NCBI GenBank assembly: GCA_021018995.1
Contig: CM037584.1
Location: 45,645,811-45,709,810, forward strand
Length of the DNA: 64,000 nt
Source: Chloranthus sessilifolius
Taxonomy: Eukaryota; Streptophyta; Magnoliopsida; Chloranthales; Chloranthaceae
Reading direction: 5' to 3'
A model generated the notes under the pieces. That model made no database searches and was not told the DNA's origin. It saw only the letters and a program-made list of their open reading frames with translations. Below, piece by piece: positions 6,856 to 62,949 of this stretch. The position numbers and the translations under genes were made by a program. Numbering within the stretch: the stretch's first letter is position 1; each line of letters starts with the position of its first letter.

Positions 6856-6867
6856 TCGACTGGTTGA
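6856..6867. repeat. Palindrome of the TCGACTGGTCGA array (left of the split)
   Basis: TCGACTGGTTGA lies at 6856. After removal of the younger insertion and one target copy, the next unit of the array (at 21529) begins exactly 21 bp further on. The array therefore existed before the insertion, and the younger element landed on the edge of one of its palindromes. Confidence 0.7.
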
Positions 6868-6872
6868 AGTCT

Positions 6873-6877
6873 CATAT
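6873..6877. repeat. Target site duplication CATAT (left)
   Basis: CATAT precedes the first LTR (TGTAATATCC) and the identical CATAT follows the second LTR at 21525-21529. A 5-bp duplication is the signature of LTR-element integration and fixes both outer ends. Confidence 0.9.
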
Positions 6878-9469
6878 TGTAATATCCTAAAAATTTGACC
6901 GTTTGACTTTAACCTCGAGATCCGTGCCCGATTGATCGTAGGTTTGACTCAGTAATGGTCAAACATTGAGTTCATGAAGTGATGAACTGATGTGATGAAC
7001 TGATGTGAATCCATTGTGATTAGGAGTGTTGAATAGTATTAGTTTTGAGCTACATACACCTATCTCTGGTGTATGCGCTAAACACCGAAACCAAAAGAGA
7101 GGATATAAGGGTTTAATAACCCTAGAATCCTTTTGTTTTGGTTGCTGAAGAAAGAGTTAAGAGGAGAGAGAGAAAGAGGAAGAGATTAATTGTCGAGTTA
7201 TTGTGGTTGGATTGAGGAAAGATGGATAATTGATTGCCGGATTCAACGCGTTTAGAGCTATTGAAGCAAAAGCTGGAGCCCTAGCCATTCCAACCTAGAT
7301 CTTGATCAATTTGAGAATTGATTGAGGTGAGTTTTAATTAAAGTTAATGTTTGTATTGTAGACGAATTTAATTCAGTCAAATGTGCTTAAAAGGAGTAGA
7401 TTAAAGGCTTAGAAAGAAAAGAAATGAGTTTTGGAAGAATAACCCGAAAGGGGGTTGAATCTGGCCAAATCGATTAATCGAAATTGGGATTCGATTAATT
7501 GATTTTGGCCCAGAAGTTGAAAAGTCATGAGTGCCTGATTTCGATTAATCGAATTGGATTTCGATTAATCGATTTGGATGTTCGATTAGTCGATTTGGAA
7601 ATCGACTAATCGACTGGGTACTTCTAGCGGCTGGAAAACAAGACCTGGGGAAATCGACTAATCGAGTTGGGAAATCGATTAATCGATTTTGGATTTCGAT
7701 TAATTGATTTGAGATCGACTAATCGATTTCAGACTTTCGACCACTCGATTTGAGAATCGACTTCATTATATTAGAGACTTCGATTAATCGATTTGGGATC
7801 GATTAATCGAATTCAAATCTCGATTAATCGATTTTGAGAATCGATTAATCGATTTGGGTTTCTATTAATCGATTTTGGGAATCGATTAATCGAATTATAT
7901 TTCGATTAATCAATTTTGAGAATTGATTAATCGACTTTGACAGTTTTGCTTAACTTTCTAAGTTTTCTTTGAGATTCATGAAGGGTTCAGGACCTTCTTC
8001 ATTACATCTTTAGTGATGTATTGCATGTATTGTGATGTATCATAGGTGATACGTGTGAAAGCGAGCACAAGGAGCCGCGTGAGACCTTGATGCTTGGACC
8101 TTCAGAGAGTTGAGGTAGGGAACACCTTGAACATGTACTTTAACTTCAAGAGCATGTATGTAGTGATATAATTATCAGATTTGAAGTTGTTTTAATTACG
8201 AAAAACTTTATGAAAATGGGTGTGTATAATACCAAAAATATGAAAAAAGCATCAGTGTGATGCAAGTGATTAAGATCAAGTAATCTAATAAGAATGAGAC
8301 ATCCCCAGGGGATGAGAAAGTAATAAAGGCATCAGGTGTGATGCGAGTATGTATACATCCCAAGGATATATATATATATATATGATTGAATAATTACTAT
8401 TAAGGCCTAACTGATATAAGATAGCACACTTACACGGTGAACAACTATATGTAAAGCGCATGTTATTTTGTTATTTGAGGTTTGATAGGATACCCCACTG
8501 ACGTGGCGGGATACCCACGACTAACGCGATAGGATATCCGTGACCGGTACGGCGGCTAATCCGTACACCAATGCGGAGGTTTATCCGTAACAGTAAGCAC
8601 ATCCCAGGGATGTTGAGATGAGTTTTAACCCCGCCGCCTAGTGAAAAGGGGCTTGGGTCGTATTCCCAGGAATGCTATATGTATCTATTTGAAGGCAAGA
8701 TGAAGGGTATCTCATCGGGGCTCGATGCTATATTACTTGGGGATTACTTAAGTTGAAGATTTAAGTTTTGCTTTAGGCCTGTTCAGTGTCATTCATGATA
8801 AATCAAAAGTAAAGTAAGACATGCTAATTACCAGTAAACTTGAATGTAATTCATCAGCCTTTAAACTATTTTCTAGCAAATGCATAGACACATCATGCTT
8901 AAAGTATCATGGAATATATGTGAGTCTTAATTTATATGTACATTGTGTTTGTTCCCTATTGAGCTAGGATGTAGCTCACCCTTTAGACTATACGTCGCAG
9001 GTCCACTGATAGCAGCAGTTGAGGCTTCAGGAGACGTAGATCCGGGTGATTCGGATTATGTGCCTGGAGACGAGTTGGAGCCTCCACCCAAGGACTTCTT
9101 CTAGGAGACTCTGCTATGTACTTTGACAGAGAGTAGTTTGAGAGCAGATTTGTACGGCTTGGTATGTCAAGCCTTTATTTTTGATAAACATGTAATTAAA
9201 TTAGATTATTCATTTGGCGAGCCATCTGGGGTGATCTGTTTATCACCGATGGTTCGGATCGGTTCTCTGTTCATGCAGTGGCAGGAAAGTAGAACTGTCT
9301 TTTGCATATGCCAATTGGGCATATCAACAGTTTTCGCTTTATGAGATTATTTGCTTTATTTATTTGATTGTGCTTGTTATACTAATGTTTCATGCATAGT
9401 TTTGGGGCACGGTCTGGAGGATCGTGCTGATGGCACGGGTTTTGGGGTGCCGAAATCCGGGCTGCCACA
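6878..9469 (+). repeat. 5' LTR (2592 bp)
   Basis: Starts TGTAATATCC, ends GGGCTGCCACA, and matches 18930-21524 along its whole length. It holds the TCGATTAATCGA array at 7470-7934, repeated 'atcccagggatg' words around 8300-8610 and a short TA run at 8367. Compared with the 3' LTR it has a short duplication of 'gatgaactgatgtgat' near 6980 and a shorter TA run. Confidence 0.9.
7470..7934. repeat. Phased palindrome array, core ATTAAT (5' LTR)
   Basis: About twenty copies of TCGATTAATCGA and close variants (TCGACTAATCGA, TCGATTAGTCGA). Starts at 7470, 7491; 7541, 7561, 7582, 7602; 7654, 7675, 7696, 7715, 7737; 7780, 7799, 7820, 7841, 7861, 7882, 7902, 7923. Within each run, start-to-start spacing is 19-22 bp, mostly 20 or 21, so the sites lie on one face of the helix. 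The ~9-bp spacers are AT-rich and often contain TTTGG. There is no long reading frame through it, so a protein-binding or chromatin role is more likely than coding. Confidence 0.85.
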
Positions 9470-9485
9470 GTTAGTATCAAAGCGA
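9470..9485 (+). promoter_or_regulatory. Primer binding site (initiator Met tRNA type)
   Basis: Directly after the LTR end is GTTAGTATCAAAGCG, a diverged form of the TGGTATCAGAGC site complementary to the 3' end of initiator-Met tRNA, which primes minus-strand synthesis in most plant LTR elements. Confidence 0.75.
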
Positions 9486-9572
9486 TTTCTTTTAGAAACT
9501 CTGACAATCATTCCTTTGTCAGAATATAGGGACTTCTGCTAATGAAAACTTTGTTTTCACGTGTAGACAGTT

Positions 9573-10900
9573 ATGTCTTCTAGAGGAAGGGGCCGACCTA
9601 GGGGCGGTCATAGTAAAAGCTTGCGTAGTCGAGATGATTTTATCTCGGATACCAATAGAGTTCCCATAGGAGATGGAGGGGCTTCTGGCAGTGGTGGCCA
9701 AGGAAGCCAAGATCAGAGAGAGAATCAAGATCGAGATCTACAGGATCAAAATCAGAGAGAACAGGAAAGAGTTAGAGAACGAAATGAGGACAGAGAAGAG
9801 TGTTAGAAGATGATGCACACCATAGAGACCATGGCGGCTGCTATGGCCCAACAGGCAGCATCTTTGGCAGCTCATACAGCTCATGAGCAGCATCAGCCAC
9901 CGACACCTCTAGTGGCTCCGACACCGCCAACATCTTCTACTTTTACTGAGTTTAGGAGGATGAGACCTCCTAGCTTTTCTGGACAGGGAGAGCCCATAGT
10001 GGCAGAGCATTGGCTGAGTGAGATGGAGAAGGTATTCAGTGTATTGACGTGCACGGAGGACAAGAGCGTCCGTTGGGCAGCCTACATGCTAGACGGAGAG
10101 GCTGGGCCTTGGTGGAAGTCCGTTTCAAGGACTAGGGCTCAGGAGACTCCGGATTTGCCCTGGACTTGGGATGAATTCGTTGAGGAATTCAATAAACAAT
10201 ACTTCCCCGAGGTTGTGCGAAATCAGATGGAGATCCAATTTTTGCAACTCGTACAGGGGAAGATGACAGTGAGAGACTATGGAGTGGAGTTTATGCAACT
10301 CGCTCGCTTTGCGCCCGACTACGTCGTCACTGATATGATGAAAGCAAAGAGCTTTCAGCAAGGTTTGAAGCCGGACGTGAGGGGAGGAGTAGCACCATTC
10401 CAACTAAGGACCTATGGGGAGGTCATGAGCAAAGCCTTGGTGGTAGATGAAGAAAATAACAACAAGTACCGTCAGAGGGAGCAACAAGGAAGGTGGAACA
10501 CTAATCAGAGCAGAATGGGGAATTATGAACCGATGAATAAAAAGTAGAGATTCGTACCAAATAATTAGAAACCACCGTTCCAAGGAGGCTATGGGAGACC
10601 GGCACAGCAGAGCAACCAGCAGAGATTTCCATTGCTCATGTCGGGGAGACCGATACTCTACGAGAGCCCTGCTATCACTACCGGCGCTTCTGATCCACCA
10701 CACCTCGTGAGACTTGTGCCAAGTGTGGCAAGCCTCACAAGACAGCGAACTGTAGGATAGGCACTCGGGGTTGTTTTCGATGTGGCAAGGTGGGCCACTT
10801 GATCAAGGAATGCCCTGAGGTGAACAAAGGAAAGACGGCTTCAACACCTATTCCACGACTTATACAAGCGAGGAAGCCGATCGTCTAAGGGAGAGCCTAT
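9573..10900 (+). pseudogene. gag: Ty3 gag region (capsid and zinc knuckles), broken
   Basis: Encodes a charged N-terminus rich in R, G, Q and E. A capsid-like domain follows (FRRMRPPSFSGQGEP, AEHWLSEMEKVF, FVEEFNKQYFPE), the retrotransposon gag fold of plant Ty3 elements. Two zinc knuckles at 10715-10813 follow, CAKCGKPHKTANC and CFRCGKVGHLIKEC. In a live element this protein forms the particle that packages element RNA. The region is interrupted and treated as a fossil. Confidence 0.85.
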
Positions 10901-11137
10901 GCAGTCACAGCTCAAGAGGCTCAGAATACAAATGACGTGATTCAAGGTGAGCTTCTTTTTAAATAAAGAATTTTAATTCTTGAAATTTTTAAATAGAGGA
11001 GGTGCATCTATATTTAGAAGAATATAAGAAGAAACTTACATGTGATAAATTCTAGTATAATGATAGAAACTACATATATATATATATGTATGTATACATG
11101 AGTAGGTACGTTATAAATATATAAGAAGGAAAGCGAC

Positions 11138-14100
11138 GTGACATACGAAGCTCGAGTGTTGATAGACCCGGGGTCTACCCACTCATTTGTTACACCTTGC
11201 TTCACGAAGAGGATGAAAGTCGACCCAGAGGAGTTAGACTTCGTTTTAACCGTGACTGTTCCTACTGGGAAATCGGTTGATACTGAAAAGGGTTGCAACT
11301 CTGTGATCGTGAGGGTCATGGATGGAGATGTATTTGAGCTACCGGCAAACCTAATTCTATTAGACATGCAAGGATTCGACGTAATCCTTGGCATGGATTG
11401 GTTATCGACTCACTGTGCTATGGTAGATTGTGAGAACAAGGTCGTCATCTTCAGACCCAACACGAGGAGATCATTTAGATTTAGAGGAGAGAGGTCGACA
11501 CACCTACCACTTATCTCAGCAGTTAGGGTCGAGCGATTGATCAGAAAAGGGTGTAGTAGATACTTGGCATTTTTGAAGGAGCATAAAGAGGAGAAGAATG
11601 TTATCTTTGAGATAGCAGTTGTGCGAGACTTCGCCGATGTATTTTCGGAGGAGTTACCTGGATTACCTCCATAGAGAGAGATAGAATTCGCCATCGACTT
11701 AGCACTAGGAACGGAGCCTGTTTTTAAAGCACCATACAGAATGACTCCTGCTGAGTTGAAGGAGTTGAAATAGCAGCTACAAGAATTAATGGACAAGGGT
11801 TTTGTTAGACCGAGCGTGTCTCCATGGAGAGCACCGGCCTTGTTTATAAAGAAGAAAGATGGGTCAATACGTCTGTGCATTGACTATCGACAATTGAACA
11901 AACTTACCATCAAGAATCGATACCCTTTGCCTAGGATAGATGACTTGTTTGATCAACTGTAAGGAGCGAAGTATTTCTCTAAGATCGATCTGAGATCGGG
12001 ATACCATCAGTTGAGAGTCAAGGCAGAGGATATTCAGAAGACTGCATTCAGGACTCGATACGGACACTATGAGTTCCTAGTGATGTCGTTTGGGTTGACA
12101 AATGTCTCGACGCCATTCATGGATTTGATGAATAAGGTGTTTAAACCACACCTGGACTCTTGTGTTGTAGTATTTGTTGACGACATCCTGATTTATTTAA
12201 AATTAGAGGAAGAGCATGAAAAGTAGCTCTACAGACTCTACATGAACATCAACTGTATGCCAAGCTCAGCAAATGTGAGTTTTGGTTAGAAGAAGTTAGC
12301 TTTTTGGGACATGTCGTCTCAAAGCTTGGTGTCACTGTAGATCCAACAAAGATCGAAGCAGTAGTAAATTGGGAGCAACCAAAGACTGTGACCGACATCC
12401 GTAGTTTCCTAAGATTAGCAGGTTACTATCGGCATTTCGTTGAGGGTTTTTAAAAATATCAGGACCACTCACGAGACTTACACGGAAAGATGCAAGGTTC
12501 GAATGGAGTGAGACATGCGAGAAGAGTTTTCAAGAACTCAAGAAGAGACTCACTTCAGCTCCAGCGTTAGCTATACCTTCAGGCAGTGGAGGGTTTGCAG
12601 TGTATAGCGATGCTTCGTATACTGGTTTGGGCTGCGTGCTTAATCAACACAGAAAAGTGATAGCTTACGGGTCGAGACAGTTGAAAGAGCATGAGAAGAA
12701 TTATCCGACACATGACCTGAAATTAGCAGCGGTCATTTTGTGCTGAAGATTTGGAGACATTATTTGTACGGTGAGACTTTTGAGATTTTCACCGATCATA
12801 AGAGCCTCAGATATTTGTTTACACAGAAGAAACTAAATATGAGGCAACGCAGATGGATGTTCTCAAGGACTATGACTGTTCTATACAGTACCATCCAGGC
12901 AAGGCTAATGTAGTGGCCGACGCCTTGAGCCAGAAGAGTTCAGCTCAGTTGGCTAGTCTAATTTTGGGTATGTACAGATGGAAATTGTTTGAAGATCTGG
13001 CACTATATGATGCAAACATTGAGTCACAGGCTACAGGAGCCTTCTTGGCTAATATCTCAGTGAGACCGGTGATATTTCAGCATATCCATGAACTACTGAT
13101 GAATGACCCGGCGCTAACAAAGATTCATCAAGATGTAAATGAAGGCATTACATCTGAGTTTTTGATCAAGGAGGATGGTTCCTTATTGTTCAAGGGTCGT
13201 CTCTGTATTTCGGATAACGCCGATCTGCGGCGAACAATTCTGGATGAATCACACAAGTCAAGCTATGCTATCCACCTAGGAAGCACAAAGATGTATCAAG
13301 ATTTGAAAAAGAACTACTGGTGGAGAGGCTTAAAACATGATGTAGCAGAGTACGTGTCACGGTGTTTGACGTGCCAACAAGTGAAGATCGATCATAGACA
13401 CCCCGTAGGTCTATTGCAGCCTCTACCTATACCGGAATGGAAGTGGGAATCGATTTCTATGGATTTCATCGTTGGACTACCGCGTACTGTAAAGAAGTAC
13501 AATGCCATATGGGTAGTAGTCGATCGATTGACCAAGTCAGCGCACTTCTTGCCTTACAACACGATGTATACGGCGGGAAGACTGGCGGAGCTGTATATGA
13601 AGGAGATTATCCGTTTGCATGGGATTTCGAGTAGCATTGTTTTCGATCGGGACCCCTTGTATACATCAAAGTTTTGGAAGAAATTTTAAGAAGGAATGAG
13701 AACGCGACTAGATTTCAGTACGACATTCCATCCGCAAACTGACGGACAGACTGAGAGGGTCAATCAGATCATTGAGGACATGCTTAGGGCATGTATGTTA
13801 GAATTGCAAGGATCGTGGGATCAGCACCTACCCTTGATCGAGTTCGCATATAATAACAGTTTTCAGATGAGCATTGGGATGGCACCATATGAAGCTCTTT
13901 ACGGACGGCGATGTAGATCGCCCATCAATTGGGAAGAAACGGGTGAGAAATTCGTTTTGGGACCTGAAATACTTAAAGATAATGCCACCTATGTTTGTAT
14001 GATAAGGGCAAAACTCAAAGTGGCTCAGAGCAGACAGAAAAGCTATGTCGATATCAAGCGGACGAGTGTAGACTTCAAGCTGGGTGAACACGTGTTTGTC

Positions 14101-14505
14101 AAAGTGTCACCTATGAAGGGGGTGATGAGATTTGGAAAGAGAGAGAAGCTAAGTCCCCGCTATCTTAGACCGTTCGAAGTTTTGGGTCGAGTAGGGGAAG
14201 TTGCTTACCGCATTGGATTGCCACCGTTATTCGATCAAGTACATAATGTGTTCCACGTGTCTATGCTCAGGAAGTACCTTAATGACCCTGATCACGTGTT
14301 GAGCGGTCAATCATTTGAGATGCATGAGGACATGACTATGATCGAAGAGCCGGAGGAGATTTTAGATCGAAAAGAACAAGTGTTGAGAACAAAAGTGATT
14401 CCATTAGTGCTTGTCCGATGGAAGCATCATCCAGCCGAGGAAGCTACATGGGAACGAGAGGCCGACGTGAAAGAACAGTATCCAAGCTTATTTGCGACAA
14501 CTTGA
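11138..14505 (+). pseudogene. pol: Ty3 pol region (PR-RT-RNase H-IN-chromodomain), broken
   Basis: In order: aspartic protease (VLIDPGSTHSFV, about 11150-11470); reverse transcriptase ([20 protein letters not shown] near 11855-11920 and FVDDILIYL near 12172-12200); RNase H (about 12540-12850); integrase with an H-H-C-C zinc region (about 13230-13390) and core (MDFIVGLPRT, FHPQTDGQTERVNQIIEDML); and a C-terminal chromodomain (about 14350-14500). This order is typical of chromoviruses, whose chromodomain directs integration to chromatin marks. Several interruptions are present. No function is expected from this copy. Confidence 0.9.
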
Positions 14506-14773
14506 AAGTCGAAATTGTATCACCGCAAGCATGTTTGTGGATTTGAACTATGTGTTGTAATTCAATTTTGATCTTATGATCAATTTACTTAAGAGAACAA
14601 TTTTATCCACATAGAGTCTCAAACGCTGTGTTGAACGCAAAATTAGAATTCATCATGGTCACGACATGGCCATAATGATGTATTTTGTAGAACCAATGAC
14701 CAGCTGGTCATAGTTTACCATGAGAAATCAAAGAGACATGAAAAAATTTTTAATCTGAAGAATCTGATCAAAA
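14506..14773 (+). other. Non-coding spacer after pol
   Basis: No reading frame or known motif. It joins the integrase/chromodomain end to the internal palindrome array. Confidence 0.6.
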
Positions 14774-15371
14774 TCGATTAATCGATTTTGGTCAATTAGT
14801 CGTCTGGCAAGCACCAGTGAGTGGAAATTGGAACAAGATTCAGAAAAATGACAAAGTAAAATTTCGATTAATCGATTTTGGTTTCGATTAATCGATTTAT
14901 GTTTTTGATTAATCGAATTGGGGATTCGATTAATCGAGTAACTTGAGAATTCTAGAAGAACTTGAGAATTCTAGAAGAACTTGAAGGATTTTTATATGAT
15001 TTCGATTAGTCGAGGAAAAATTCGATTAATCAATTTGAAATTTTGATTAATCAAACTGAAAGTTCGACTAATCGAGTAACTTAAGGATTTTAGAAAAAAA
15101 AAATTTGAAGGACTGCACGATTTCGATTAATCGAAGTGAGTCTCGATTAATCGATTTTGGGATTTCGATTAATCGAAATGAGACTGGCTCACGCCAGTGA
15201 GCTCCAAAACTTAAAATTTTTAGCGGATACGATTTCGATTAATCGATTTTGAGTTTCGACTAATCGATTTTGGAATTCGAATAATCGATTTTGGAAATCG
15301 ATTAATCGATTTCGTGCGGCTTAGCCTAATTATAAATCTCAATTAATCGACTTTGAAAATCGATTAATCGA
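14774..15371. repeat. Phased palindrome array, core ATTAAT (internal)
   Basis: A second array of TCGATTAATCGA-type palindromes. Runs include 14864, 14884, 14905, 14926; 15002, 15022, 15043, 15064; 15123, 15143, 15165; 15235, 15256, 15277, 15298; 15339, 15360. Spacing within runs is again 20-22 bp. It ends about 10 bp before a TATA run (15381) and precedes the accessory gene region, so it occupies the place of an upstream activating region. A 17-bp word, AGAATTCTAGAAGAACT-like, is tandemly repeated near 14945-14985. Confidence 0.85.
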
Positions 15372-15380
15372 GCCGGGGCC

Positions 15381-15392
15381 TATATATATAAA
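15381..15392 (+). promoter_or_regulatory. Candidate TATA box of an internal promoter
   Basis: TATATATATAAA lies just after the palindrome array and is followed by a CT-rich leader (cttctctccttcctcctct, 15431-15449). Together with the downstream accessory reading frame this suggests a second, internal transcription unit. Inferred from sequence layout only. Confidence 0.45.
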
Positions 15393-15504
15393 TTGAGGGG
15401 GATTTCTCCCCATTCGAAATCATTTGCGCCTTCTCTCCTTCCTCCTCTAATGACCGAGGTACCTAGGGTTTGGGCATTCGAATCGATTTCGGATTGAAAT
15501 CGCG

Positions 15505-15522
15505 TGACATCGGATCAAAAAG
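15505..15522. repeat. 18-bp direct repeat flanking an insertion (left)
   Basis: GTGACATCGGATCAAAAA occurs here and again at 17067-17084. Taking out everything between them restores a continuous leader (..gcgtgacatcggatcaaaaacctaagg..). It is read as a target duplication. Confidence 0.75.
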
Positions 15523-17066
15523 ATCTATTACAATATAGCAAGAACAAGGGTGTCGAACCCACAAGGAAACGTGAATTTTTAATTAATTCTTCAAAAGATT
15601 TTAAAAACGTCCTTAAGAAAGTACCAAAGGGCAGATTCAGTTTATCAAAAATTTATCACACTTTTCCTAAATGCAAGAAAAATAAATTAATTAATCTAAA
15701 CAACTAATTACTGATGAATCTAAGAACAATATTTAAATATGATCAAGGAATATGCTATCCCAGATTAGTACCCTTTTTCTATCATTAAAATCCACAGTTT
15801 CATTAAAGCATTATTCACACCATCATTCGTCTATAGAGATGATTCGTAATAAAATATGATCATAAATCCGGCATACCCTATCTAAAAACAATCACTCAGC
15901 CTATCATTGCGGTATGAGTCATGTAAGAAGCATAGCGTATCTCATGATGTTTAGATCACAACAGTAAAAATATAATCGCTCCGCAGCCTAGATCAGCCTG
16001 CAGGTCCAGATCTAGCGATTATAGCCGTTGATATGTGCAATCAACGGACATAACAAGCATTCAATATATTTTTAATAACACAAATTTTTAGCAAAACGAT
16101 TCCATGATAATAATAATAGACTGCGGTATTAATCATAAAAAATTGCTACTTATCTGGGGATCGCATCTTCCCCGATCAACTGATTTAGCCGCTCATCTGT
16201 GGTGTATGATCTGCTTGTTCATTCAAAGTCATTCCTCTTTTCATTTCTTCTAAAAGATCTTTGTTTACAATGTCTTTTCCTAAATACAATCTATGAATGT
16301 AAAAGAGAGACAGTGCAAATCCTAAGTACAATCTACCCAGATCAAACCCTAGAAGAAGGGGAAGAGAAGAACTCTTAAAAAGATGCCTAGAGAAGTCTAA
16401 AACCAAAAATAATAATAATGAATAATAATCCTCAAAAATTCTCTCCAAAAATAAGTCTCCTCCCGAAGTGTTTGATTTGTCTTTAAATAGCATCCACGTC
16501 GCGTAGGTTTCCCAGCCGCAGAGGTGTTCCAACTCGACAATTTAGGGTCGATTAATCGACCCAATAGGGTTGATGCATCGACCCTAAAAAGATCCCTAAA
16601 AATATGCTTTAAAGTGTCAGGTCTGTGTCAGACTCCTTTTTGTGGCTCGATTAATCGACCAAAAGGGTCGATGCATCGACTCCCAAAAGTCCGTGAATTC
16701 CAGCCCACTTTTTGTATCAGACACTGCTTCAGTATTTCGGCCATAACTTTCTGTCCCGAACTCGGATTGAGGCGATTCTTGACCGTTGGAAAGCTGACAG
16801 AAAGATCTACAACTTTTGTGTTTTGACAATTTCATAATTCGGCCGTCTGAGAGGTTCAAATTGAGCTGCAAGTTGCACCAAGTTCTCGATGTCCCAAAGT
16901 TGCAGTGTTTTGACATTATTTTCAGAATTCTTGGGCTATTTTCTGCACTTGGCTTGTATTTACCTGAAACACTTCAAATCTAATAATTCTTATCAAATAG
17001 CCTTCATCGGATAGCCAAATGTAGGTATTTAGGGGTGAAATATTATCATATTTCACTACTCATCAG
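15523..17066. mobile_element. 1.5-kb non-coding element inserted in the Tekay element
   Basis: Bounded by an 18-bp direct repeat and with no recognisable protein. It starts 'gatctattacaatatagcaa' and ends 'tttcactactcatca'. The long, variable-length target repeat favours a retroposon or an unclassified element over an LTR element or a hAT. It carries its own palindrome pairs (16548-16679) with a mixed core. The true superfamily is unknown. Confidence 0.6.
16548..16679. repeat. Two hetero-pairs of phased palindromes, cores ATTAAT and ATGCAT
   Basis: GGGTCGATTAATCGACCC (12-mer core starting 16548) is followed by TTGATGCATCGA at 16570 (22 bp). TCGATTAATCGA at 16647 is followed by TCGATGCATCGA at 16668 (exactly 21 bp). 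Unlike the other arrays, each pair combines two different palindromes. Confidence 0.8.
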
Positions 17067-17160
17067 TGACATCGGATCAAAAACCTAAGGTAAACCCTAG
17101 ATTCGAGTCTTTCCTTCAATTTGAGCTATAAAACCCTAGTTTTGAGCTATTTGCACCAAG

Positions 17161-18657
17161 ATGCCACCTAAAACACGATTGTCTTCGAAGAAGGTAACCT
17201 CCAAGCTTCCGGTTCGGCGTTAGAATGCCGCACCGCCACCACCTACCCCATCATCGGTGAGGACTCCATCACCGTCGGCATCGGAGACCACCTCCGATTC
17301 GACGAGCGCGGCTTCGTGCGAGTCTATGTCCATGCCACCGCCACCCACCAATGTACTTCAACCCAATGAATGGTGGGCGGCTAAAACTTTTGAGATCGAG
17401 TATATTATCAATCAAACCCTATTTACAAACCCCGATGTATCGGGCGAGACCTAATGGGCTCGTAATTACTTTCAAAAAGCCGGCCTCAGCAACATCTTGA
17501 AACCAATCTGTGGGTCCTACTACCCTAGGATGGTTAGACTATTTTACCAAGGGTTGACGGACAGCCCTACCGACGACATAGTCATGACCAAGATAGAGGG
17601 TCGTGACTACACATTCACTAGTCGCCACATCCACGAGGTTCTTGAATGCTACCTCGACTTCGTACCCGAGACCACCCTCTTCCCACCCTTTGAGGAGGAG
17701 GTGAGATTTGAGGAAGTAATGACCTGGATGACCAACGAAAAGAAGGGGTCGGGATCCTCCATTAGGAGGGTCGACCTTCCCCATTATATGTGGATGCTTG
17801 ATTCTATAATCAAGTGCAACCTATACCCGTTGCGTCACGACACCGAGCGGGTAGAAAAAGTGCAGCAGACACTCTACGCGGCCTTTTGTGGCCGTTGGTT
17901 TGACGCCACGATGGTCATCCTCGAGGGGATGAGGTACATCAAGGGCAAGTAGATGAAGGGCAACTTGAGGCCCAAGGAGAAAATGCCCTATGCTCGGCTC
18001 ATCTCGAGCATGCTGAAGTGTTATTCCTACGCTCCAGAATACGCGATATCGCCCCATGAGGAGAGGGCTACGTGCCGAGTGAAGATGTTCTCAAACTCTT
18101 CATGGATCCGTAGCTACAACCTACTCAAGCGGACCCTACCGGCTCCGGGTCCAGCACCAGCAGCAACAGCACCTCCACCACCCCCACCACCACATCAGGA
18201 CCCACCCATGGGTGGGGCACACCCAGTTGATCCACCAGTGGAGGGGACGCCCTCCCATACCACTGCCTCACCTATGCCGCTAATGCGGTCTGCGGCAGCG
18301 ACACCAACATCTTCTTATCGCTGACGAGCGGCTCACCCGGCGCCCTCTATCAAGAACGTGTTGGCTAGGATAGAGGCCAACAACAAGAGGATGAACCGAC
18401 GGATGGACTTTTTGATGTTCCATACATTACGCTACATCTATCCGTTGGACTACAAGCAGTGCCTCGCGCAGGAGGCGGAGTGGACAGCAAGATGGACCGC
18501 CTTCCATACGGGTGCCGTTTTCCATGGGAGCACATCTGCTGCTAACGCATCTGGCTCGGCGCCACAACAGCCGGAGCAGCCGACGGAGACGCCCCAGCTA
18601 GTACCACCAGAGCAGCCTGCCCCTGCATCAAATCATCCAGGGGAGGGGACGGCGTGA
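17161..18657 (+). pseudogene. Accessory gene region between pol and 3' LTR, broken
   Basis: Begins with an ATG (MPPKTRLSSKK), then a proline/serine-rich stretch and a globular part (WWAAKTFEIEYI, ICGSYYPRMVRLFYQGL, LPHYMWMLDSIIKCNLYP), then proline-rich and helical tails (MLARIEANNKRMNRRMDFL). The globular part resembles the 'putative plant transposon protein' domain found in extra genes of some large plant LTR elements; this assignment is from memory and moderate. Its function is unknown. The region is on the sense strand, preceded by a TATA-like box and palindrome array, and is interrupted in a few places. Confidence 0.6.
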
Positions 18658-18910
18658 GACTGAGATGAGGATGTTTTGTTTTGTATGACTGATTTTGAGA
18701 GTTTTGATGTAATTGAAAAGAAGTAATTAAACAAGTTGTAAATTTTGAAAATTTTAATGAAATACAGAAAAATTTTGTGGATGTGCTTGAATTAATTGTG
18801 TTTACTCACTTTGCGTAATGTATCCGTCAACTTTTACGTGTGTGGTTACGTGCTACCCCAGTGTGTGGGGTACCCAAGCGAGCACCTTTGGGTTATTTTC
18901 GAGGACGAAA
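18658..18910 (+). other. Non-coding spacer before the polypurine tract
   Basis: AT-rich sequence after the accessory region, with no motif until the polypurine tract. Confidence 0.5.
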
Positions 18911-18929
18911 ATTCCCAAGGTGGGGAGAA
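18911..18929 (+). promoter_or_regulatory. Polypurine tract
   Basis: CCCAAGGTGGGGAGAA abuts the 3' LTR start (TGTAATATCC). Such a purine run resists RNase H and primes plus-strand synthesis in LTR elements. Confidence 0.85.
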
Positions 18930-20407
18930 TGTAATATCCCGAAAAATTGACCGTTTGACTTTGATCTCGGGATCCGTGCCCGATTGATCGTAGGTTTGAC
19001 CCAGTGATGGTCAAACATTGAGTTCATGAAGTGATGAACTGATGTGATGCCATTGTGATTAGGAGTGTTGAATAGTATTAGTTTTGAGCTACATACACCT
19101 ATCTCTGGTGTATGCGCTAAACACCAAAACCAAAAGAGAGGATATAAGGGTTTAATAACCCTAGAATCCTTTTATTTTGGTTGTTGAAGAAAGAGTTAAG
19201 AGGAGAGAGAAAGAGGAAGAGATTAATTGTCAAGGAGTTATTGTGGTTGGATTGAGGGAAGATGGAGCATTAATTGCCGGATTCAACGCGTTTAGAGCCA
19301 TTGAAGCAAAAGCTGGAACCCTAGCCATTCCAACCTAGATCTTGATCAATTTGAGAATTGATTGAGGTGAGTTTTAATTAAAGTTAATGCTTGTATTTTA
19401 GATGAATTTAATTCAGTCAAATGTGCTTAAAAGGAGTAGATTAAAGGCTTAGAAAGAAAAGAAAAGAGTTTTGGAAGAACAACCCGAAAGGAGGCTGAAT
19501 CTGGCCAAATCGATTAATCGAAATTGGGATTCGATTAATTGATTTTGGCCCAAAAGTTGAAAAGTCATGAGTGCCCGATTTCGATTAATCAAATTGGATT
19601 TCGATTAATCGATTTGGATGTTCGAATAGTCGATTTAGAAATCGACTAATCGACTGGGTACTTCCAGTGGCTGAAAAACAAGACCTGGGGAAATCGACTA
19701 ATCGAGTTGGAAAATCGATTAATCGATTTTGGATTTCGATTAATCGATTTGGGTTCGACTAATCGATTTCAGACTTTCGACCACTCGATTTGAGAATCGA
19801 CTTCATTATGTTAGAGACTTCGATTAATCGATTTGGGATCGATTAATCGAATTTGAATCTCGATTAATCGATTTTGAGAATCGATTAATCAATTTGGGTT
19901 TCGATTAATCGATTTTGGGAATCGATTAATCGAATTGTATTTTGATTAATCGATTTTGGGAATCGATTAATTGACTTTGACAATTTTGCTTAACTTTCTA
20001 AGTTTTCTTTAAGATTCATGGAGGGTCCATGACCTTCTTCATTACATCTTTAGTGATGTATTGCATGTATTGTGAGGTACCATAGGTGGTACGTGTGAAA
20101 GCGAGCACAAGGAGCCGCGTGGGACCTTGATGCTTGGACCTTCAGAGAGTTGAGGTAGGGAGCACCTTGAACATGTACTTTAACTTCAAGAGCATGCATG
20201 TAATTATATAATTATCAGATTTGAAGTTGTTTTAATTACGAAAAGCTTTGTGAAAATGGGTGTGCGTGTGTAATACCAAAAATGTGAAAAAGGTATCAAT
20301 GTGATGCAAGTGATTAAGATCAAGTAATCTAATAAGAATGAGACATCCCCAGGGATGAGAAAGTAATAAAGGCATCAGGTGTGATGCGAGTATGTATACA
20401 TCCCAGG

Positions 20408-20455
<48 letters not shown>

Positions 20456-21524
20456 TGAATAATTACTGTTGAGGCCTAACTGATATAAGATAACACACTT
20501 ATATGGTGAACAACTATATGTAAAACACATGTTATTTTTGTTATTTGAGGTTTGATAGGATACCCCACCGACGTGGCGGGATACCTACGGCTGACGGAAC
20601 AGGATATCCGTGACTGGTACGGCAGCTAATTCGTACACTAGTGCGAAGGTTTATCTGTAATAGTAAGCACATCCCAGGGATGTTGAGATGAGTTTTAACC
20701 CCGCCGCCTAGTGAAAAGGGGCTTGGTTCGTATTCCCAGGGAATATTTTATAACAACTGTCTATTTAGACGATGATGAAGGGTATCTCATCGGGGCTCGA
20801 TGCTATATTGCTCGGGGATTTCTTAAGTTGAAGATTTAAGTTTTTCTTTAGGCATGTTCAGTGTCATTCATGATAAATCAAAAGTAAAGTAAGACATGCT
20901 AATTACCAATAAATTTGAATGCAATTCATTAACTTTTAAACTGTTTTCTAACAAATGCATAGACACATCATGCTTAAAGTATCATGGAATATATGTGAGT
21001 CTTAATTTATATGTTCATTGTGTTTGTTCCCTATTGAGCTAGGATGTAGCTCACCCTTTAGACTATACGTCGCAGATCCACCGATAGCAGCAGTTGAGGC
21101 TTCGAGAGACATAGATCCGGATGATTCGAATTACGTGCCTAGAGACGAGTTGGAGCCTCCACCCGAGGACTTCTTCTAGGAGACTCTACTATGTACTTTG
21201 ACAGAGAGTAGTTTGAGAGCAGATTTGCACAGCTTGGTATGTCAAGCCTTTATTTTTGATAAACATGTAATTAAATTGGATTATTCATTTGGCGAACTAT
21301 CTGGGGTGATCTGTTTATCACCGATGGTTTAGGTTCGTTCTCTGTTCTTGCAGTAGCATGAAAGTAGAACTGTCTTTTGCATATGCCAGTTGGGCATATC
21401 AATTGTTTCCGCTTTATGAAATTATTTGCTTTATTTATTTAATTATACTTGTTATACTAATGTTCCGTGCACAATTATTGGCTGATGGCACGAGTTTCGG
21501 GGTGCTGAAATCCGGGCTGTCACA
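18930..21524 (+). repeat. 3' LTR (2595 bp)
   Basis: Starts TGTAATATCCC, ends GGGCTGTCACA, and is colinear with 6878-9469. It has a TA run at 20412-20452 that is much longer than the one in the 5' LTR. A CATAT target copy follows directly. Confidence 0.9.
19510..19974. repeat. Phased palindrome array, core ATTAAT (3' LTR)
   Basis: The counterpart of the 5' LTR array with the same site order and 19-22 bp spacing. The two LTR copies have mutated independently yet most palindromes remain recognisable. Confidence 0.85.
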
Positions 21525-21529: not shown

Positions 21530-21930
21530 CGACCTATCTAGATTATAGAAGAAAAACATAAACACAATCAATATCGTTTGGTCGAGTTCCATCTCGACTG
21601 CTTTTTTGAGGAAAAGAGAAGAAAGCATAAATAAACAGAATTCGACTGGTCGAATTTGAATCTCGGTCGGTTGAGTTTCCTGAAGGAAATATAAGAGAGT
21701 CAATCTCGACTGGTCGAAACTGGATATCGATCGGTCAAGATCAAAGAAGAATAATTCTGAAGAAAAGACAAAATTCGACTGGATAAAAGTGGATTTCGAC
21801 TGGTCGAGATTTCCAAACAGGGGGCGCAAAGCCTTATATAAAATCGACTGGTCGAGTTTGTAACTCGACCTGTCAAGTTACATCGATGAGATAAATCTCG
21901 ACCGGTCGAAGTTGAATCTTGACCGGTCGA
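21529..21930. repeat. Phased palindrome pairs, core CTGGT/CCGGT type
   Basis: Pairs: 21574/21594, 21642/21663, 21706/21727, 21775/21796, 21844/21865 and 21898/21919. Nearly all are exactly 21 bp apart, and pairs recur every 54-69 bp. The units are TCGACTGGTCGA, TCGACCGGTCGA and one- or two-base variants. Confidence 0.85.
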
Positions 21931-22704
21931 TTTTAGTATTTCAGGCACAAATTGAGTTTTTTACTCCAATCCTAGATTTCCTTCTTTCCCGATTTTTACT
22001 AGAGTTATTTTAGGGTTTCCTTTTTGAAATAACTGAATATTTTAAGATGGATTGAAGGGCACTCACCTGTTGAAGCGTGAACAGTGATTCTGTGATAGTT
22101 CAGGTTGATGTGGATCAATGATTAGAAAGTCGATTTGCTCGAATCTTCACGCAAATAAACTTTTCTTACGAAAAATTATGTTGCAGGAATGAGGAACCTT
22201 GTTGGTGGTTGATTGGGCTCTATAAAAGAAGGCTAGAGCCGCTGTTATGATAGTGGTCTGAACTCGTGGAAATGCTCGGTGGTGGATCTTGTTTAAAGAT
22301 GAGATGGTGGTGTATTTGCAGAGAAAAGATAACAAGAGAGAGACAGATAAAAGAGAGGATGAAGTAGGGAATTTTATTTCTCTCTAGATTTTCTATTTAT
22401 ATAAAAGAGGTAGTTAGAGAAAGAGCCTAATTGGATAAGTTGATTAGCCAAAAGGTAAGAGTCCATAAACACTCTAATTGATTGTAAATCAATTCCATGA
22501 ATTTTGAGATTTAATTCCCTTAGTTGTTAAGGCAATAGGTCTTTTGGGATTCGGTTACCATTTTTAGTGTAAATCGGTTCTTATATTAGAAATAGCTTAA
22601 TTTATTTGTGTTGGCTATGATAGGGTGTGGGCACATTCACTTAAGTCGGTGCTCTACTTATCTATCACCCTAGAAAGGATAAAAAAGGGGTCCGGGTCAT
22701 AACA
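21530..22704 (-). mobile_element. Old reversed Tekay-like LTR, right part
   Basis: On the - strand it begins TGTTATGACCCGGACCCC at 22704, a typical LTR start, and contains the TCGACTGGTCGA array. It joins 5354-6877 once the younger element is removed. The array sits about 0.77-1.15 kb from the LTR start, close to the 0.6-1.06 kb position of the array in the younger LTRs. Confidence 0.55.
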
Positions 22705-31856: not shown

Positions 31857-34800
31857 TACCATCTCTCAAAAGTAAAGCAAAAATACCCGGTTAACTCATG
31901 CTCAAGGTGATGTAACTTTAACACATCCTCTTCTCAACTATCCTGATCCCTATATTTTCACTTCACAAGCCCTATTCAGATTTTTTTAACCCTTATGGAA
32001 AACTATCAGTTGCTACAACTATATGATTGATACATCATATAATCAGTGGCGATCTTGTTCCTTGGATCTCGATAATACAAAGAAAGGAGCTAATTATTAG
32101 TTCTAAAGCTAAAAGTTCCGCGAATGAGATGAAATAAAAAAGGAGGAAGGGACAAGGCTGTCTATCTTCACCAAGAAAACTCAGAAACTTGGAGAAGAGG
32201 TGATAGAAGAGCAAGCCAAGAAAGGATGCTTGAAAATAGATAGGTCTGATTGGGAATGTCACATTCCATGATCAACCAGTGGGTATTGAAACTATTAGGT
32301 GAGTTTTTAGTGCAAGCCACATAAAACCCCAGGCAGACCCACCAAAAAAAAACAGTTTTGTTTTTCTCTGATCCCGACCTGCTTAGTTGGCTTGGTTTGA
32401 TTAGCTAAATCAGCTTTCTCTGTACTTGAAGTCAACTTCCTGATCTAGCTTGACTTTAAGGTACTAGAAGTCAACTTCTGAACTAATGAAAACATTTATG
32501 AAGCAAGATGCTATATGATAAAGTGTAAAGTTGTATGCCATCATTTAAATCCATCCATCTCATGCGTAGGCACCCTTTGCGCTTGCACCTTGAAATTAGG
32601 CGCAAGTACAGTGAGGTGTGCGTAAGCGTGTGCAAAAGTGCGCTTAGGCATGCCTCGAGTTCCTTTAATAACAAGGGTTAATGGCGGGGACGCTGACATT
32701 GTAGACATCCGATATGGACCTTTTCGCGTGTACCAATGTCGGAAGAAGCGGAATGGAAGTCAGAACTAGGCGAAAGATGAGATTTTGGAGAATTGGAGGA
32801 ACAAGACAAATTCGATCGATCGAAATCCTCGATCGATCGAAGTCCAATTTTGATTGATCGAACAATGTCGACAGAAAACACTATTTCTAGAGTGACATAT
32901 ATATATAATTCGATCGATCGAATGTCCATTTCAATCGATCGAACTCAGTTCGATCGATCAAATTTCAGCGGCGATATATTGATATATATATATGTGTTTC
33001 GATCGATCGAGTTTCACTTTCGATCGACCGAATTTCAATTTCGATCGATTGAGTTTCACTTTCGATCGATCAGAATCGCACATAGTTATTTTAAAATTTT
33101 AATTTCGATCTTAAGTTTTAGGGGCTTATTTGTCTTTTATTTAGTATTTGTTTTAGAGTGTTCTTTTATTGTAAGACCTCCTATATAAGATCCTTAAGAA
33201 AAACATTGTAGTTAGTTGATGATTAATGAAAAGAGTTTTTGCTTGTGTGCTTGAGATGAACTTCTATGAAGAGTGAATCTTCTTCCCGAGAAGGGTTTGG
33301 TGTGAAGCCAAGGGTGCGAAGCCCACAATCCATCATTGTCTATTTTATCCCTTTTAATCTATCTTCGTTGCTTGAATTCAAACAACCCGAATCTGCCATA
33401 TCTCATCCAAATACTCGACTCCCAAAACCCTAGCTTTTCCCTAATCCTTTGAGCCGATTCGATTTAACAACCGTAGATCCCAGCAGAGTTATTAAACCCT
33501 TCCGCATCAAATACTCAGAGAAAACCAGTAATCCCATCATTGAATTGTGAGCGCCCTAATCTGGAAAGACCTAGAGTTCTATCTCTAGGACCGATCTACA
33601 TTGCTATTCTAATGGATTTAGCGCAAAGGCTGAACCTTACTTGAACCAAACATGATCTTTCACATGGAGGACTACAAACGCCTAAGGTATTCGTTATATT
33701 TTTGGATTTATTGCTTAATTTAATTCAATTTAATTTCGGCAAGCCATTAATCATCGCATTCACGTAGTTTAGGGTGTTGTCCTGCGCTAGTTTAACCCTT
33801 ATACAACTTACTACTTTTACACGAGTTTTAAGTTGATATCTCTTTAAGTCTTAACTCTTAAAACTTATTTCTCATAAATTTATAAGCTATAGTGCTCCAC
33901 TCGAGAGTCGAGGATTAGGGCTCACTTTCTAGTTACTTACCCCTATTGGCCAGTTTGTTAAATTGTATTTTTTTTAGTGCACATAAATGATAAATACATA
34001 ATGTTCAATTCTCTATGATATTCATTTGTTTGTTGCATTTCATATTTGTTGATTACTGTATTGCTATTATACATTTATAGTATTATTTTTTAATTTTGAT
34101 ATACATTTATGATTTATGTTTAAAAACTAAAAAATTTGATTTATAAATATAAATTTTAAATATCACACATTAATAGAAATATAAAATATAATTTGTTGAT
34201 TAAAATGTATTATTTTTATATTAATATGTAAATATATAATAATAAAAAATATAAAAAACTCTAAATTAATATGCGCCTCGAAAAAAAAAGCTATGCGCCT
34301 AAGCCTCGCCTAGCCCCAAGGACCCTTGTCACCTCAGGTGTGCCTAGCACTTTTGACAACAAGGAATCTAACTGGACTACATTTGTGCTTCCTCAAGCTA
34401 ATTAAGGACAGCCAAGGGGATCTTCTCATCTCCCTCAGTCACTTGATATCACTAGAAGAGTCATCTTCTGCTTTAACCTGCTAGGCGGCACTAACTTCAG
34501 CCTTCAATGAATTCACTTAATGCATATGAAACCAGAATAAGCTATAACAAAATTGACCTGAATTATTATGGATGGAGTTGTGCCCTCCTGAGGACTTGGA
34601 TTGCCCAACGAGCATCTGTCAAGTTCAATCCATAAGCAAACCAAAAGGGAGGGGCGGACTAGCTAATCTGAGGCTTGTTGATGATTATACATTCTGAAGA
34701 ATGGTTACCTTAAAACATTTTTCAAAATTAGAGGAGCGCTAACTACAAGGAACTTTCAAGGGAGATCGCATGAAATTATCTCGACCATCAATGTTTGAAT

Positions 34801-56543: not shown

Positions 56544-56756
56544 TGTAAAATAAGGTTAGGGAGAGAGATAGAGCGAAGAATAGAAGTTAGGAGATATTAG
56601 GGGTGAGTCAATATCCTCATACCCACATATCACTAATATTTATATCATTTACAAATCATTATTGACACCCACTACTATCTAAACACACTCACGCTTACAT
56701 AGAGTAACACCCATACACACACCAACTAAGAACACAATACTACAAACACACCAACA
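56544..56756 (-). repeat. 3' LTR of the inner copia element (213 bp)
   Basis: On the - strand it starts TGTTGGTGTGTTTG, after the tract AACTTGAGGGGGAG (56757-56770), and ends TTATTTTACA. Its end resembles the visible part of the 5' LTR at 61589-61644. Confidence 0.75.
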
Positions 56757-59700: not shown

Positions 59701-60052
59701 CTAACAGAAAAAAGATTTATGGGCATTTTAGGAACACATAAAGAGGAAGTTAAGGAAAACATGACCAGCATGAATTGTCCCTTTACCACCAATAGGGATA
59801 AGAGATCTATCTGCAACCCGAATGTCACATTGATTAGACATAGGAGATACTAATTGGAACATTGAACAAGAACCTGCCATATGATCCGTGGTCGCAGACT
59901 CAACAATCCACACGGAAGAAGAAATAGATGTATGAGAAGCTTGAACATCTATCTCTGCCCCGCCTTTTCCAAAAAAAAAAAAAAACTATCTCTGTCTCAA
60001 GAATACGATATTTGTTTGTTAACTCTATCATGGAGCAGCTATCACCCAACAC

Positions 60053-60275
60053 CAAGGATCAAAATGCGGTTTTTCCGCAGACGTATCGTCCAAAACGACG
60101 ATCGTGTCGACACGTCATGAACGATATATAATACCGGACGATACATTGAATGTATCGTCCGGTATTAGCCTTATAAATGGGCGATACGGTACATTTAATG
60201 TACCGTATCGCCCACCTCCGATACCGATACGTATCGTCCGATACGTATCGGTATCGGACGATATTTTGATCCATG
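60053..60275. mobile_element. hAT-like MITE of the GTATCG family (223 bp)
   Basis: Begins CAAGGATCAAAATG, ends ATTTTGATCCATG, flanked by an exact 8-bp duplication CCCAACAC (60045-60052, 60276-60283). Two near-perfect hairpins: ACCGGACGATACATT with its complement around one central base, and GGGCGATACGGTACATT with its complement likewise. It is in reverse order relative to the 38429 copy. Confidence 0.85.
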
Positions 60276-60283
60276 CCCAACAC

Positions 60284-61574: not shown

Positions 61575-61575
61575 C

Positions 61576-61588
61576 TGCTCTAATACCA
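61576..61588 (-). promoter_or_regulatory. Primer binding site of the inner copia element
   Basis: The - strand reads TGGTATTAGAGCAG next to the LTR end, close to the initiator-Met tRNA complement TGGTATCAGAGC. Confidence 0.75.
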
Positions 61589-61644
61589 TGAAATTAGGTT
61601 AGGTAGAGAGAAGAAAAGATCGAAGTTAAGAAGTTAGGGTTGAC

Positions 61645-62106
61645 CAGTGTTGTTAAATGGCATATGCGAGGGTATGCGATGGCATGGCCCAATCACATAT
61701 GCGAATTACATATGCGATTGTGCCATGGCATACATTTTTTTTTCCAAAATTTGAAAAAATATAAAACAAATCCCATAAATTCCCAGAAAATCCCCAATAT
61801 AAAAAACCACTATATTGTTAGTTGTGTGCTCTATATTGTAGAATGAGGATAATTTATCCCATAAGGTTGAAGGGAAAATATAAATTTCATTAAAAAATAA
61901 GTTAAAATAGTACAAAAATATAGTTGACCATACAAAAGAGAACGAAAAGACTAAAGAGAAAAATTATTGTAAGAATGAGGAGCATTAGGAAAGAAACCCC
62001 CTACTTATAGGGCTTGGGGAAGCTTGAAAACAAAGACAAAAAAAAAAAAAAAAACACCTTCCAGTGGAGAAGTATGTTATCGCCTACATTGTATGCGATG
62101 GTATAC
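61645..62106. mobile_element. hAT-like element end, interrupted by a chromovirus
   Basis: Starts CAGTGTTGTTAAATGG, the same type of terminus as the hAT element at 27385, right after GGGTTGAC, which should be the 8-bp target. It has repeated 'tatgcgatgg' and 'catatgcga' words. It is cut at 62106 by the chromovirus LTR; its other end is not in the window. Confidence 0.5.
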
Positions 62107-62665
62107 TGACGCGGAACAAAACCTAAACTACGTGAATGACTATGAGGTGATAAATTTGCTGAAATTAAACTAGATTAATTGAGCAATAAATATGAAAATA
62201 ACGTGAATACCTTAGGGTTTCATAGTTTTCCATTTGGATGATCGCGTTGTGATTCAGATAGGGTCCGATCCGTTAGCCTTGCGGAAGGAGGATCCTAGAG
62301 GTAGAACTCTAGCTACTTCCATATTAGGGCTCGCTCATAGATCAACGATGGAATCACCGGGTCAATCTAGGGTTCTTGGAAACAAATCAATTTAATGGTT
62401 TATGGCTAGGGTTTATAATTTCAGGGTATTTTGAAAGAGTAAAGGCTGGATTTAGGGTAATGGAAAACAAAATAAAAGCATGGAAAGATAAATCAAAGGA
62501 ATAGAAAAAGGATAGAGAGAAATCATAGGCTTCACACCCTTGGCTTCACACCAAACCCTACTTGGGAAACGAAGAATCACTCTTCGTAGAGGTTCATCTC
62601 GAGCACACACAAGCAATAGTTTTTCATTAATCAATCAATCATCCCAATTACAATGTTTAATGACC

Positions 62666-62672
62666 TTTTATA
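62666..62672 (-). promoter_or_regulatory. TATA-like box of the chromovirus LTR
   Basis: TATAAAA on the - strand, about 125 bp downstream of the palindrome array, at the place corresponding to 33182-33188 in the related copy. Confidence 0.5.
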
Positions 62673-62795
62673 TGAGGCGCCACAATAGAAAACCCTAAAA
62701 TAAATAATTACGAAACTACCCTACAGTACTTAATACGAAACAAGAGAAACCTAGGGTACAAAAAAAACAAAGAAAAAGTCAAAACTCATCTTGTC

Positions 62796-62949
62796 TCACT
62801 CGAGCAACTTATTCCAGAGAAAATTCACATGTCATCTTCAATATCTCGCTCGAGCGACCACCAAAATCGCTCAAGCGACTTTTGGCCGAGAGTTTGACCA
62901 TTATTCTGGAGCATTCTCGCTCGAGCGAGAAGTGAAGTCGCTCGAGCGA
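62796..62949. repeat. Phased palindrome pairs, core CTCGAG (chromovirus LTR)
   Basis: TCGCTCGAGCGA at 62846 with TCGCTCAAGCGA at 62867 (21 bp), and TCGCTCGAGCGA at 62917 with the same word at 62938 (21 bp), plus a lone TCACTCGAGCAA at 62796. The related LTR at 32812 has ATCGAT cores in this position. Confidence 0.85.

Follow-up and report, generated by a model that had tools for sequence, protein, structure and literature searches.

Why do several elements in one stretch of a plant genome carry arrays of short palindromes that share a spacing and differ in sequence? The question is raised by 64,000 nucleotides of Chloranthus sessilifolius (C1:45645811-45709810 of the 2.17-Gb host genome; the whole stretch is called the window here), in which 12-bp palindromes of the form TCG-N6-CGA recur about 21 bp apart in sequence of long terminal repeat (LTR) retrotransposons. 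The 12-bp palindrome of an array is called its word. Here, we report that these arrays are real, that their spacing is sharp, that they lie in LTRs or near TATA-like boxes, and that words are swapped between aligned flanks of related elements. On this sequence evidence, we give a somewhat better than even chance to the arrays being cis-regulatory promoter platforms of LTR retrotransposons for dimeric, probably host, DNA-binding proteins.

TCG-N6-CGA occurs 65 times in the window against a mean of 4.4 (maximum, 10) in 200 dinucleotide shuffles of the window. Perfect palindromes make up 39 of the 65 (shuffle mean, 0.075; maximum, 2), and 27 pairs lie 19 to 22 bp apart (shuffle mean, 0.005; maximum, 1). 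Two TCGANNNNTCGA separated by an 8- to 10-bp spacer matched 21 times in the window and never in 100 shuffles. Sites were called with up to 4 mismatches, giving 88 sites in seven arrays, with 59 of 81 neighbor steps at 19 to 22 bp and 38 at exactly 21 bp (44 and 30 of 63 when the 3' LTR copy of element A is excluded). All called sites have a neighbor 17 to 22 bp away, in array B by counting partners with up to 4 mismatches (chance of such a match to the B word, 0.0013 per 12-mer). The words in the window are TCGATTAATCGA, TCGATCGATCGA, TCGCTCGAGCGA, TCGATGCATCGA, and TCGAC(C/T)GGTCGA. A preliminary description of the window, which had proposed at least eight arrays with different cores set about 21 bp apart in unrelated mobile elements, was right about the arrays, the spacing, and the varied cores; the arrays number seven, two of them being LTR copies of each other.

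The spacing extends throughout the host genome, where TCG-N6-CGA pairs at 21 bp number 97,896 (reversed control, 638), those at 23 bp 5,191 (control, 114), and those at 16 bp 313 (control, 31). The reversed controls at 21 bp in this and the following frames (638, 181, 749, and 46) are themselves palindromic frames without CpG. CAC-N6-GTG showed no excess in the host genome at 21 bp (80; control, 749). ACG-N6-CGT, planned as a negative control, came out positive (2,567 at 21 bp; control, 181), the places listed being mostly ACGGACGTCCGT variants. CGG-N4-CCG gave 2,137 pairs at 21 bp (control, 46) and 311 at 16 bp (control, 37), a weaker 21-bp preference than that of TCG-CGA, with 16-bp pairs also above control. 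In a 190-kb sample (20 stretches within the initial 1.36 Mb of C1, selected for holding a 21-bp pair, which favors 21 bp and not its multiples), distances peaked at 19 to 22, 40 to 43, 61 to 64, 83 to 84, and 103 to 106 bp. Pairs of like-word perfect 12-bp palindromes in 280 kb numbered 54 at 19 to 22 bp, 27 at 40 to 42 bp, and 22 at the remaining distances in the range 13 to 60 bp, with some double counts from the overlap of segment L130 with L121/L122. The preliminary description had held that its proposal would fall if a genome scan showed no such excess outside a single element family; the 21-bp excess is genome wide and involves more than one element lineage.

Word replacement is seen most directly in one Ty3 chromovirus lineage, comprising the relic C (about 32.7 to 33.8 kb of the window), element D, and three of the host-genome stretches (L108 to L130) compared with the window elements. 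Downstream of the pol tail and ahead of a TATA-like box, TCGATCGATCGA is found in C and L114, TCGCTCGAGCGA in D and L120, and ACGGACGTCCGT in L129. RNase H, zinc-binding, and chromodomain matches mark L129 as a chromovirus, and its array is part of a segment that recurs at both ends (89%). The flanks of the C and D arrays align, upstream at 79% over 82 bp and downstream at 77% over 189 bp and 68% over 279 bp, with no alignment within the arrays; the flanks in L129 and L120 likewise align (78% over 88 bp upstream; 72% over 190 bp and 77% over 265 bp downstream), again with none within the array. C or D and L129 share short matches on both sides (38 to 68 bp, 74 to 84%). C and L114 have the same word, and their alignment (76% over 1,121 bp) runs straight through the array. 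One word has replaced another at one position between related elements while the layout was kept. Descent of all arrays from one ancestral repeat, the other outcome named beforehand as fatal to the proposal, did not appear in the pairs compared, where different-word arrays fail to align and their flanks align; the swaps strengthen the earlier idea of the core as a changeable address.

The first TATA-like box past the last palindrome, in each case a consensus match only, lies at 109 bp in C, 124 bp in D, 90 bp in L129, 118 bp in L114, and 90 bp in L120. The distance is 84 bp in L112, 84 bp in L113, and 109 bp in L127, three segments whose kinship to C is not established, and 11 bp in L128, the last of the nine segments examined. 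L128 has the ACGGACGTCCGT word right before its TATA-like box, in a repeated segment, and its copia-type gag matches are weak and below cut-off; the arrays have likely spread to Ty1/copia, to judge by these matches. A Transposase_32-like open reading frame (ORF) of L128 (7747-8298, minus strand; E = 3e-5, below cut-off) starts beside its ACGGACGTCCGT array (8311-8490).

A chromodomain and a CATAT target-site duplication are present in element A (6878-21524), a Ty3 chromovirus. It has TCGATTAATCGA in both LTRs and once more in its interior, ahead of a TATA-like box and the accessory ORF. Segments L110/L111 share this plan, with an array-bearing 5' LTR (L110), a chromodomain piece to position 1099 of L111, an array at 1389-1865, the same TATA-like box, an ORF 82% identical in amino acids, and an array-bearing 3' LTR. 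L108/L109 lack the internal array, and the ORF there follows a shortened chromodomain piece. The order of array, TATA-like box, and accessory ORF in A and L111 is a third-gene layout, in which the ORF is Transposase_32-like. Its sole Pfam match is Transposase_32 (PF20167; E = 1.1e-9; 38.9 bits, short of the curated cut-off of 45), and a piece of it had no homologue at E ≤ 0.001 in the protein collection. The ORF of A differs from that of L111 at 22, 9, and 53 first, second, and third codon positions (about 165 each) and from that of L109 at 25, 13, and 65, a pattern that fits purifying selection.

The solo LTR L124 (duplication, AAATC) shares its end with the LTR of A (66% over 836 bp) and has a word seen outside the window, TCGTTCGAACGA, at 609 to 882 bp from the LTR start, where A has TCGATTAATCGA at 592 to 1,056 bp; we take the copia coding pieces beside L124 to be neighbors. 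In L116, a relative of A, a mixed pair of TCGACTTTGCGA and TCGATTAATCGA at 23 bp occurs at C1:229261 and C1:229344. The pair recurs at other listed places, and its first member is a non-palindromic partner within the array.

The remaining carriers in the window changed class on analysis (Table 1). The piece at 15524-17066, previously an unclassified 1.5-kb element and here called N, in part matches the beginning of the LTR in a Ty3 element (L121/L122), between whose LTRs gag, reverse transcriptase, RNase H, and integrase matches stand in Ty3 order and no chromodomain matched at E ≤ 0.001; sequence past the L121 LTR resembles what we take to be an Athila/Tat primer site. N is absent from L111. 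An 18-bp direct repeat, GTGACATCGGATCAAAAA (15506-15523 and 17067-17084), borders it on both sides, where 5 bp is expected for an LTR element. A and N belong to two different lineages and have TCGATTAATCGA in common. Segment B lies on both sides of A. A hAT transposon had been named among the carriers. No hAT domain was found among 38 ORFs of at least 70 amino acids (2.5 to 6.9, 15.5 to 17.1, 21.5 to 26, and 27 to 36.5 kb), a search that a noncoding, nonautonomous hAT would escape. A hAT origin of array B was rejected on this result and because the ends TGTTATGA...TCATAACA better fit an LTR; a relative in L125 likewise ends in TCATAACA, and B is best classed, from its ends, as probably LTR-like. 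A, N, C, and D thus lie in Ty3 retrotransposon sequence and B is LTR-like, so the carriers are not the unrelated elements first described. In array B, a TATA-like box, TTTTATATAAGGC, lies at 21840 (minus strand), within a few bases of a palindrome, and the promoter of B may be inside its array.

Table 1. Coordinates of elements, palindrome arrays, and TATA-like boxes in the window
Feature	Position	Strand	Core	Remarks
LTR-like segment B, second part	5063..6877	-		Other side of A; minus strand ends ...TCATAACA
Degenerate site	6856		ACTGGT/ACCGGT	
5' LTR of A, TGTAATATCC...GGGCTGCCACA	6878..9469	+		Preceded by 5-bp CATAT; LTR pair about 92% identical
Array A-5'LTR, 19 TCGATTAATCGA sites (≤4 mismatches)	7470..7934	+	ATTAAT	Runs of 2, 4, 5, and 8 at 19-22 bp
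gag, protease, and integrase pieces and C-terminal chromodomain of A	9807..14505	+		Pfam Retrotrans_gag, RVP_2, Integrase_H2C2, SH3_Tf2-1, Chromo
Array A-internal, 19 TCGATTAATCGA sites	14774..15371	+	ATTAAT	Chromodomain on one side, accessory ORF on the other
TATA-like box CCTATATATATAAAT	15381..15393	+		About 10 bp past last A-internal palindrome
Inserted LTR-like piece N	15524..17066	-		Part 16548-17065 is 84-85% identical to LTR start of L121/L122
Array N, two doublets, TCGATTAATCGA and T(C/T)GATGCATCGA	16548..16679	-	ATTAAT/ATGCAT	Steps of 22 and 21 bp
Accessory ORF region of A	17161..18658	+		Interrupted by stops; 17455-17952 Transposase_32-like
3' LTR of A	18930..21524	+		CATAT directly after
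Array A-3'LTR, 19 sites	19510..19974	+	ATTAAT	Copy of A-5'LTR array
LTR-like segment B, first part	21530..22704	-		Minus strand begins TGTTATGACCCGG; no coding domain found
Array B, six doublets TCGAC(T/C)GGTCGA	21574..21930	-	ACTGGT/ACCGGT	Members spaced 20-21 bp; usually one of the two degenerate
Array C, TCGATCGATCGA sites	32812..33073	+	ATCGAT	Steps of 17-21 bp within runs
TATA-like box CTCCTATATAAGATCC	33182..33189	+		Downstream of array C; consensus match
TATA-like box CTCATATAAAAGGTCA	62665..62672	-		Downstream of array D; consensus match
Array D, four TCGCTCGAGCGA sites, of which one has a single mismatch	62846..62949	-	CTCGAG	Two 21-bp doublets
C-terminal ORF of D with chromodomain	62901..63533	-		PF00385, E = 7e-7; overlaps 2 of 4 palindromes

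The chromodomain ORF of D had no homologue at E ≤ 0.001 in the protein collection. Outside the TCG-CGA frame, a further palindrome, CGATACGTATCG, has five copies in the window (3670, 3696, 38454, 60225, and 60239), including two close pairs (spaced 26 and 14 bp). The window genes look plant-like, one encoding a DHR-2 domain protein at 42.2 to 43.2 kb; SPIKE1 and NCA1 are the names that we presume for window genes.

As promoter platforms, the arrays would work as follows. Each 12-bp palindrome would be bound by a homodimeric, probably host-encoded protein, and the 21-bp step, being two helical turns, would set neighboring dimers on the same face of the helix, where they could bind cooperatively. 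The bound dimers would drive the nearby promoter, which is that of the LTR and in A presumably also an internal one for the accessory ORF. The word would select the protein that reads it, and elements would change word while the layout stays. Because the layout outlives the word, it may serve a common mechanism in which the word names the reader, and the best fit is a host reader, since arrays also occur in elements that lack space for an accessory ORF.

Several results weigh against such platforms. The LTR of A has no consensus TATA box within 400 bp after its array, and B has TATA-like boxes upstream of and inside its array. D and L120 share a word and have short arrays, yet gave no array match, so the contrast between same-word and different-word pairs rests on C and L114. 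Reading from one face of the helix, as first proposed, holds for short steps; phasing over whole arrays was rejected since its support came from short steps only, and phasing across long gaps was not established in the five arrays tested (P = 0.05 in the A 5' LTR, 0.52 in A-internal, 0.50 in B, 0.12 in C, and 0.47 in D). In A, the commonest base is kept in 432 of 456 palindrome cells versus 95 of 144 spacer cells, a contrast biased by the choice of sites that resemble the word. In a site-blind test, which used the sequence 21 bp past each perfect site regardless of its letters and is blurred by steps other than 21 bp, palindrome and spacer came out equal (63/108 versus 41/81; 44/120 versus 37/90). 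Palindrome constraint inside A was accordingly dropped as an argument. CpG is rich in the arrays measured (observed/expected, 1.6 to 3.2), in part as a product of the CpG-bearing words. Over five LTR or LTR-like pairs, one of which (L116/L117) is possibly not two LTRs of one element, CpG differences are fewer in arrays than elsewhere (26/294 versus 82/581; Fisher P = 0.03) and non-CpG differences are not (63/1,507 versus 376/8,894; P = 1). This is a hint, in favor of platforms, of what could be lower array methylation; array CpG is not lower in two of the five pairs.

Because the site-blind test found no contrast, our confidence in platforms was lowered to the level given above, and that in the arrays being neutral minisatellites, made by tandem duplication and carried by descent without function, was raised. 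Even so raised, this account strikes us as improbable. Parts of the arrays do score as tandem repeats, and palindrome positions in A were kept no better than spacers in the site-blind comparison; the genome-wide pair counts, with their sharp spacing, the recurrence of one geometry with several words across lineages, and the different-word arrays that cannot be aligned between alignable flanks all speak against it. A reader encoded by the element itself, whereby the Transposase_32-like accessory ORF of A or a similar protein would bind its own array, is hardly more credible to us. It would have a precedent in VANC of VANDAL elements (PMC5735166), it would explain arrays in LTRs and ahead of the accessory ORF in A and L110/L111, the third-position excess retained by that ORF is in its favor, and the Transposase_32-like ORF of L128 also adjoins an array. 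Against this, the arrays of C, D, and L129 directly follow the pol tail or chromodomain end and leave no room for an ORF, A and N carry the same word in different lineages, and Transposase_32 is the single Pfam match of the accessory ORF.

Function at the RNA level, with 12-bp stems and 9-nt loops forming an RNA structure or a source of 21- to 24-nt silencing small RNAs, is less far-fetched, and we still consider it unlikely. Two arrays fold far better than shuffles (z = -11.9 in the A 5' LTR and -6.6 in B), although good folding is unspecific and expected from any palindrome array. Every called window site has a neighbor within 22 bp; complementarity between adjacent sites does not clearly exceed that among sites at large (0.933 versus 0.902 in the A 5' LTR, and about equal or lower in other arrays). 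Hairpin and self-dyad constraint cannot be told apart from the site sequences, and that comparison was set aside. For the A-internal, C, and D arrays, the nearest TATA-like box is downstream, and a stem-loop needs no 21-bp step over one of 16 bp. In the parts of a maize study that bear on this point, palindromic clusters of Sireviruses are reported to have an excess of small RNAs, whereas Ty3 elements show no obvious structure peak (PMC10760457).

If words address host proteins, the words could serve as bait for their readers, which would allow a direct test of the way a plant recognizes or serves retrotransposon promoters, and sister elements with alignable promoters and different words are natural experiments. 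A wider proposal is that Ty3 and probably Ty1/copia LTR elements of several plant lineages share one promoter code of CpG-bearing 12-bp palindromes, in doublets or longer rows with a two-turn step, and a small set of words exchanged as wholes, each addressing one member of a host protein family. We offer it tentatively, as a possibility that we rather doubt; were it true, a word swap would move an element to another host regulator or off a repressor, much as in an arms race.

Similar doublets occur outside plants. In a viral collection, a TCGANNNNTCGA doublet turned up in 100 stretches, of which eight hold phased chains of 3 or 4 sites, and prokaryotic contigs gave three stretches with a TCGATTAATCGA doublet; the B word doublet was not found in the search of the viral and prokaryotic collection. 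We take these doublets to be unrelated to the plant elements. AT-rich viral contigs have four TCGATATNTCGA-like sites at 21- to 22-bp steps (L020, 9610-9685; L022, 6918-6993), five further viral contigs have chains of four, and such chains recall phage protein-binding repeat arrays. In bacterial contig L102, a TCGATTAATCGA doublet (796-827, 20-bp step) lies directly before an ORF that to the eye resembles a helix-turn-helix regulator, and is possibly an operator of the same geometry.

The preliminary description knew of no published account. Palindromic motifs in the same layout are described in Sireviruses (Ty1/copia), whose RM boxes are clustered in the LTR before the TATA box and again before ENV (Bousios et al. 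2010, PMC2829016). The relevant passages of that paper give 13 RM motifs, with a CGG-CCG core in 12 of the 13 (absent from Tnd-1), and term RM Sirevirus-specific and absent from classic retrotransposons; they hold no 21-bp motif step, the sole mention of 21 bp there being an integrase signal, so that to this extent the earlier statement stands. No 21-bp palindrome register in Ty3 elements was found by title or start of abstract among the papers listed in searches of open-licence literature, which does not prove its absence.

Dense noncoding arrays of short family-specific motifs that vary among related elements are also known from VANDAL elements of Arabidopsis, in which, as far as the source was available, the VANC21 motif YAGTATTAY is non-palindromic, in one orientation, and read by the element's own protein (PMC5735166). 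The words here are palindromic, and their assigned carriers are LTR elements and not DNA transposons; no MULE or VANC family is among the Pfam matches listed for ORFs of the window and L segments. Sunflower Athila and Tekay likewise have additional ORFs in Ty3, one Athila ORF partly matching Transposase_32 in the portion of the source at hand (PMC11728184); that portion mentions no palindrome arrays, and it is the array and TATA-like box at the ORF that mark the elements described here.

The closest likeness is to the Sirevirus RM boxes as described in those passages. Both systems have multicopy palindrome clusters in the LTR before a TATA-like box (not in this form in the LTR of A), further copies before a third gene, CpG richness (here in part a product of the words), and a word that varies by element, and the Usier RM GTCGGACGTCCGAC shares ten bases, CGGACGTCCG, with the L128/L129 word ACGGACGTCCGT. 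Unlike RM, the window words are TCG-CGA and not CGG-CCG, a signature present in the ACGGACGTCCGT of L128 and L129; the carriers include Ty3 elements, with chromodomains in A, D, and L129 and Ty3 domain order in the N family; and a 21-bp step was measured genome wide, with words swapped between aligned flanks. The kind is known from Sireviruses; new, as far as the literature search shows, are the Ty3 carriers, the genome-wide 21-bp step, and word replacement, and palindromes described as a copia-group feature are tied to Ty3 elements through one measurable geometry.

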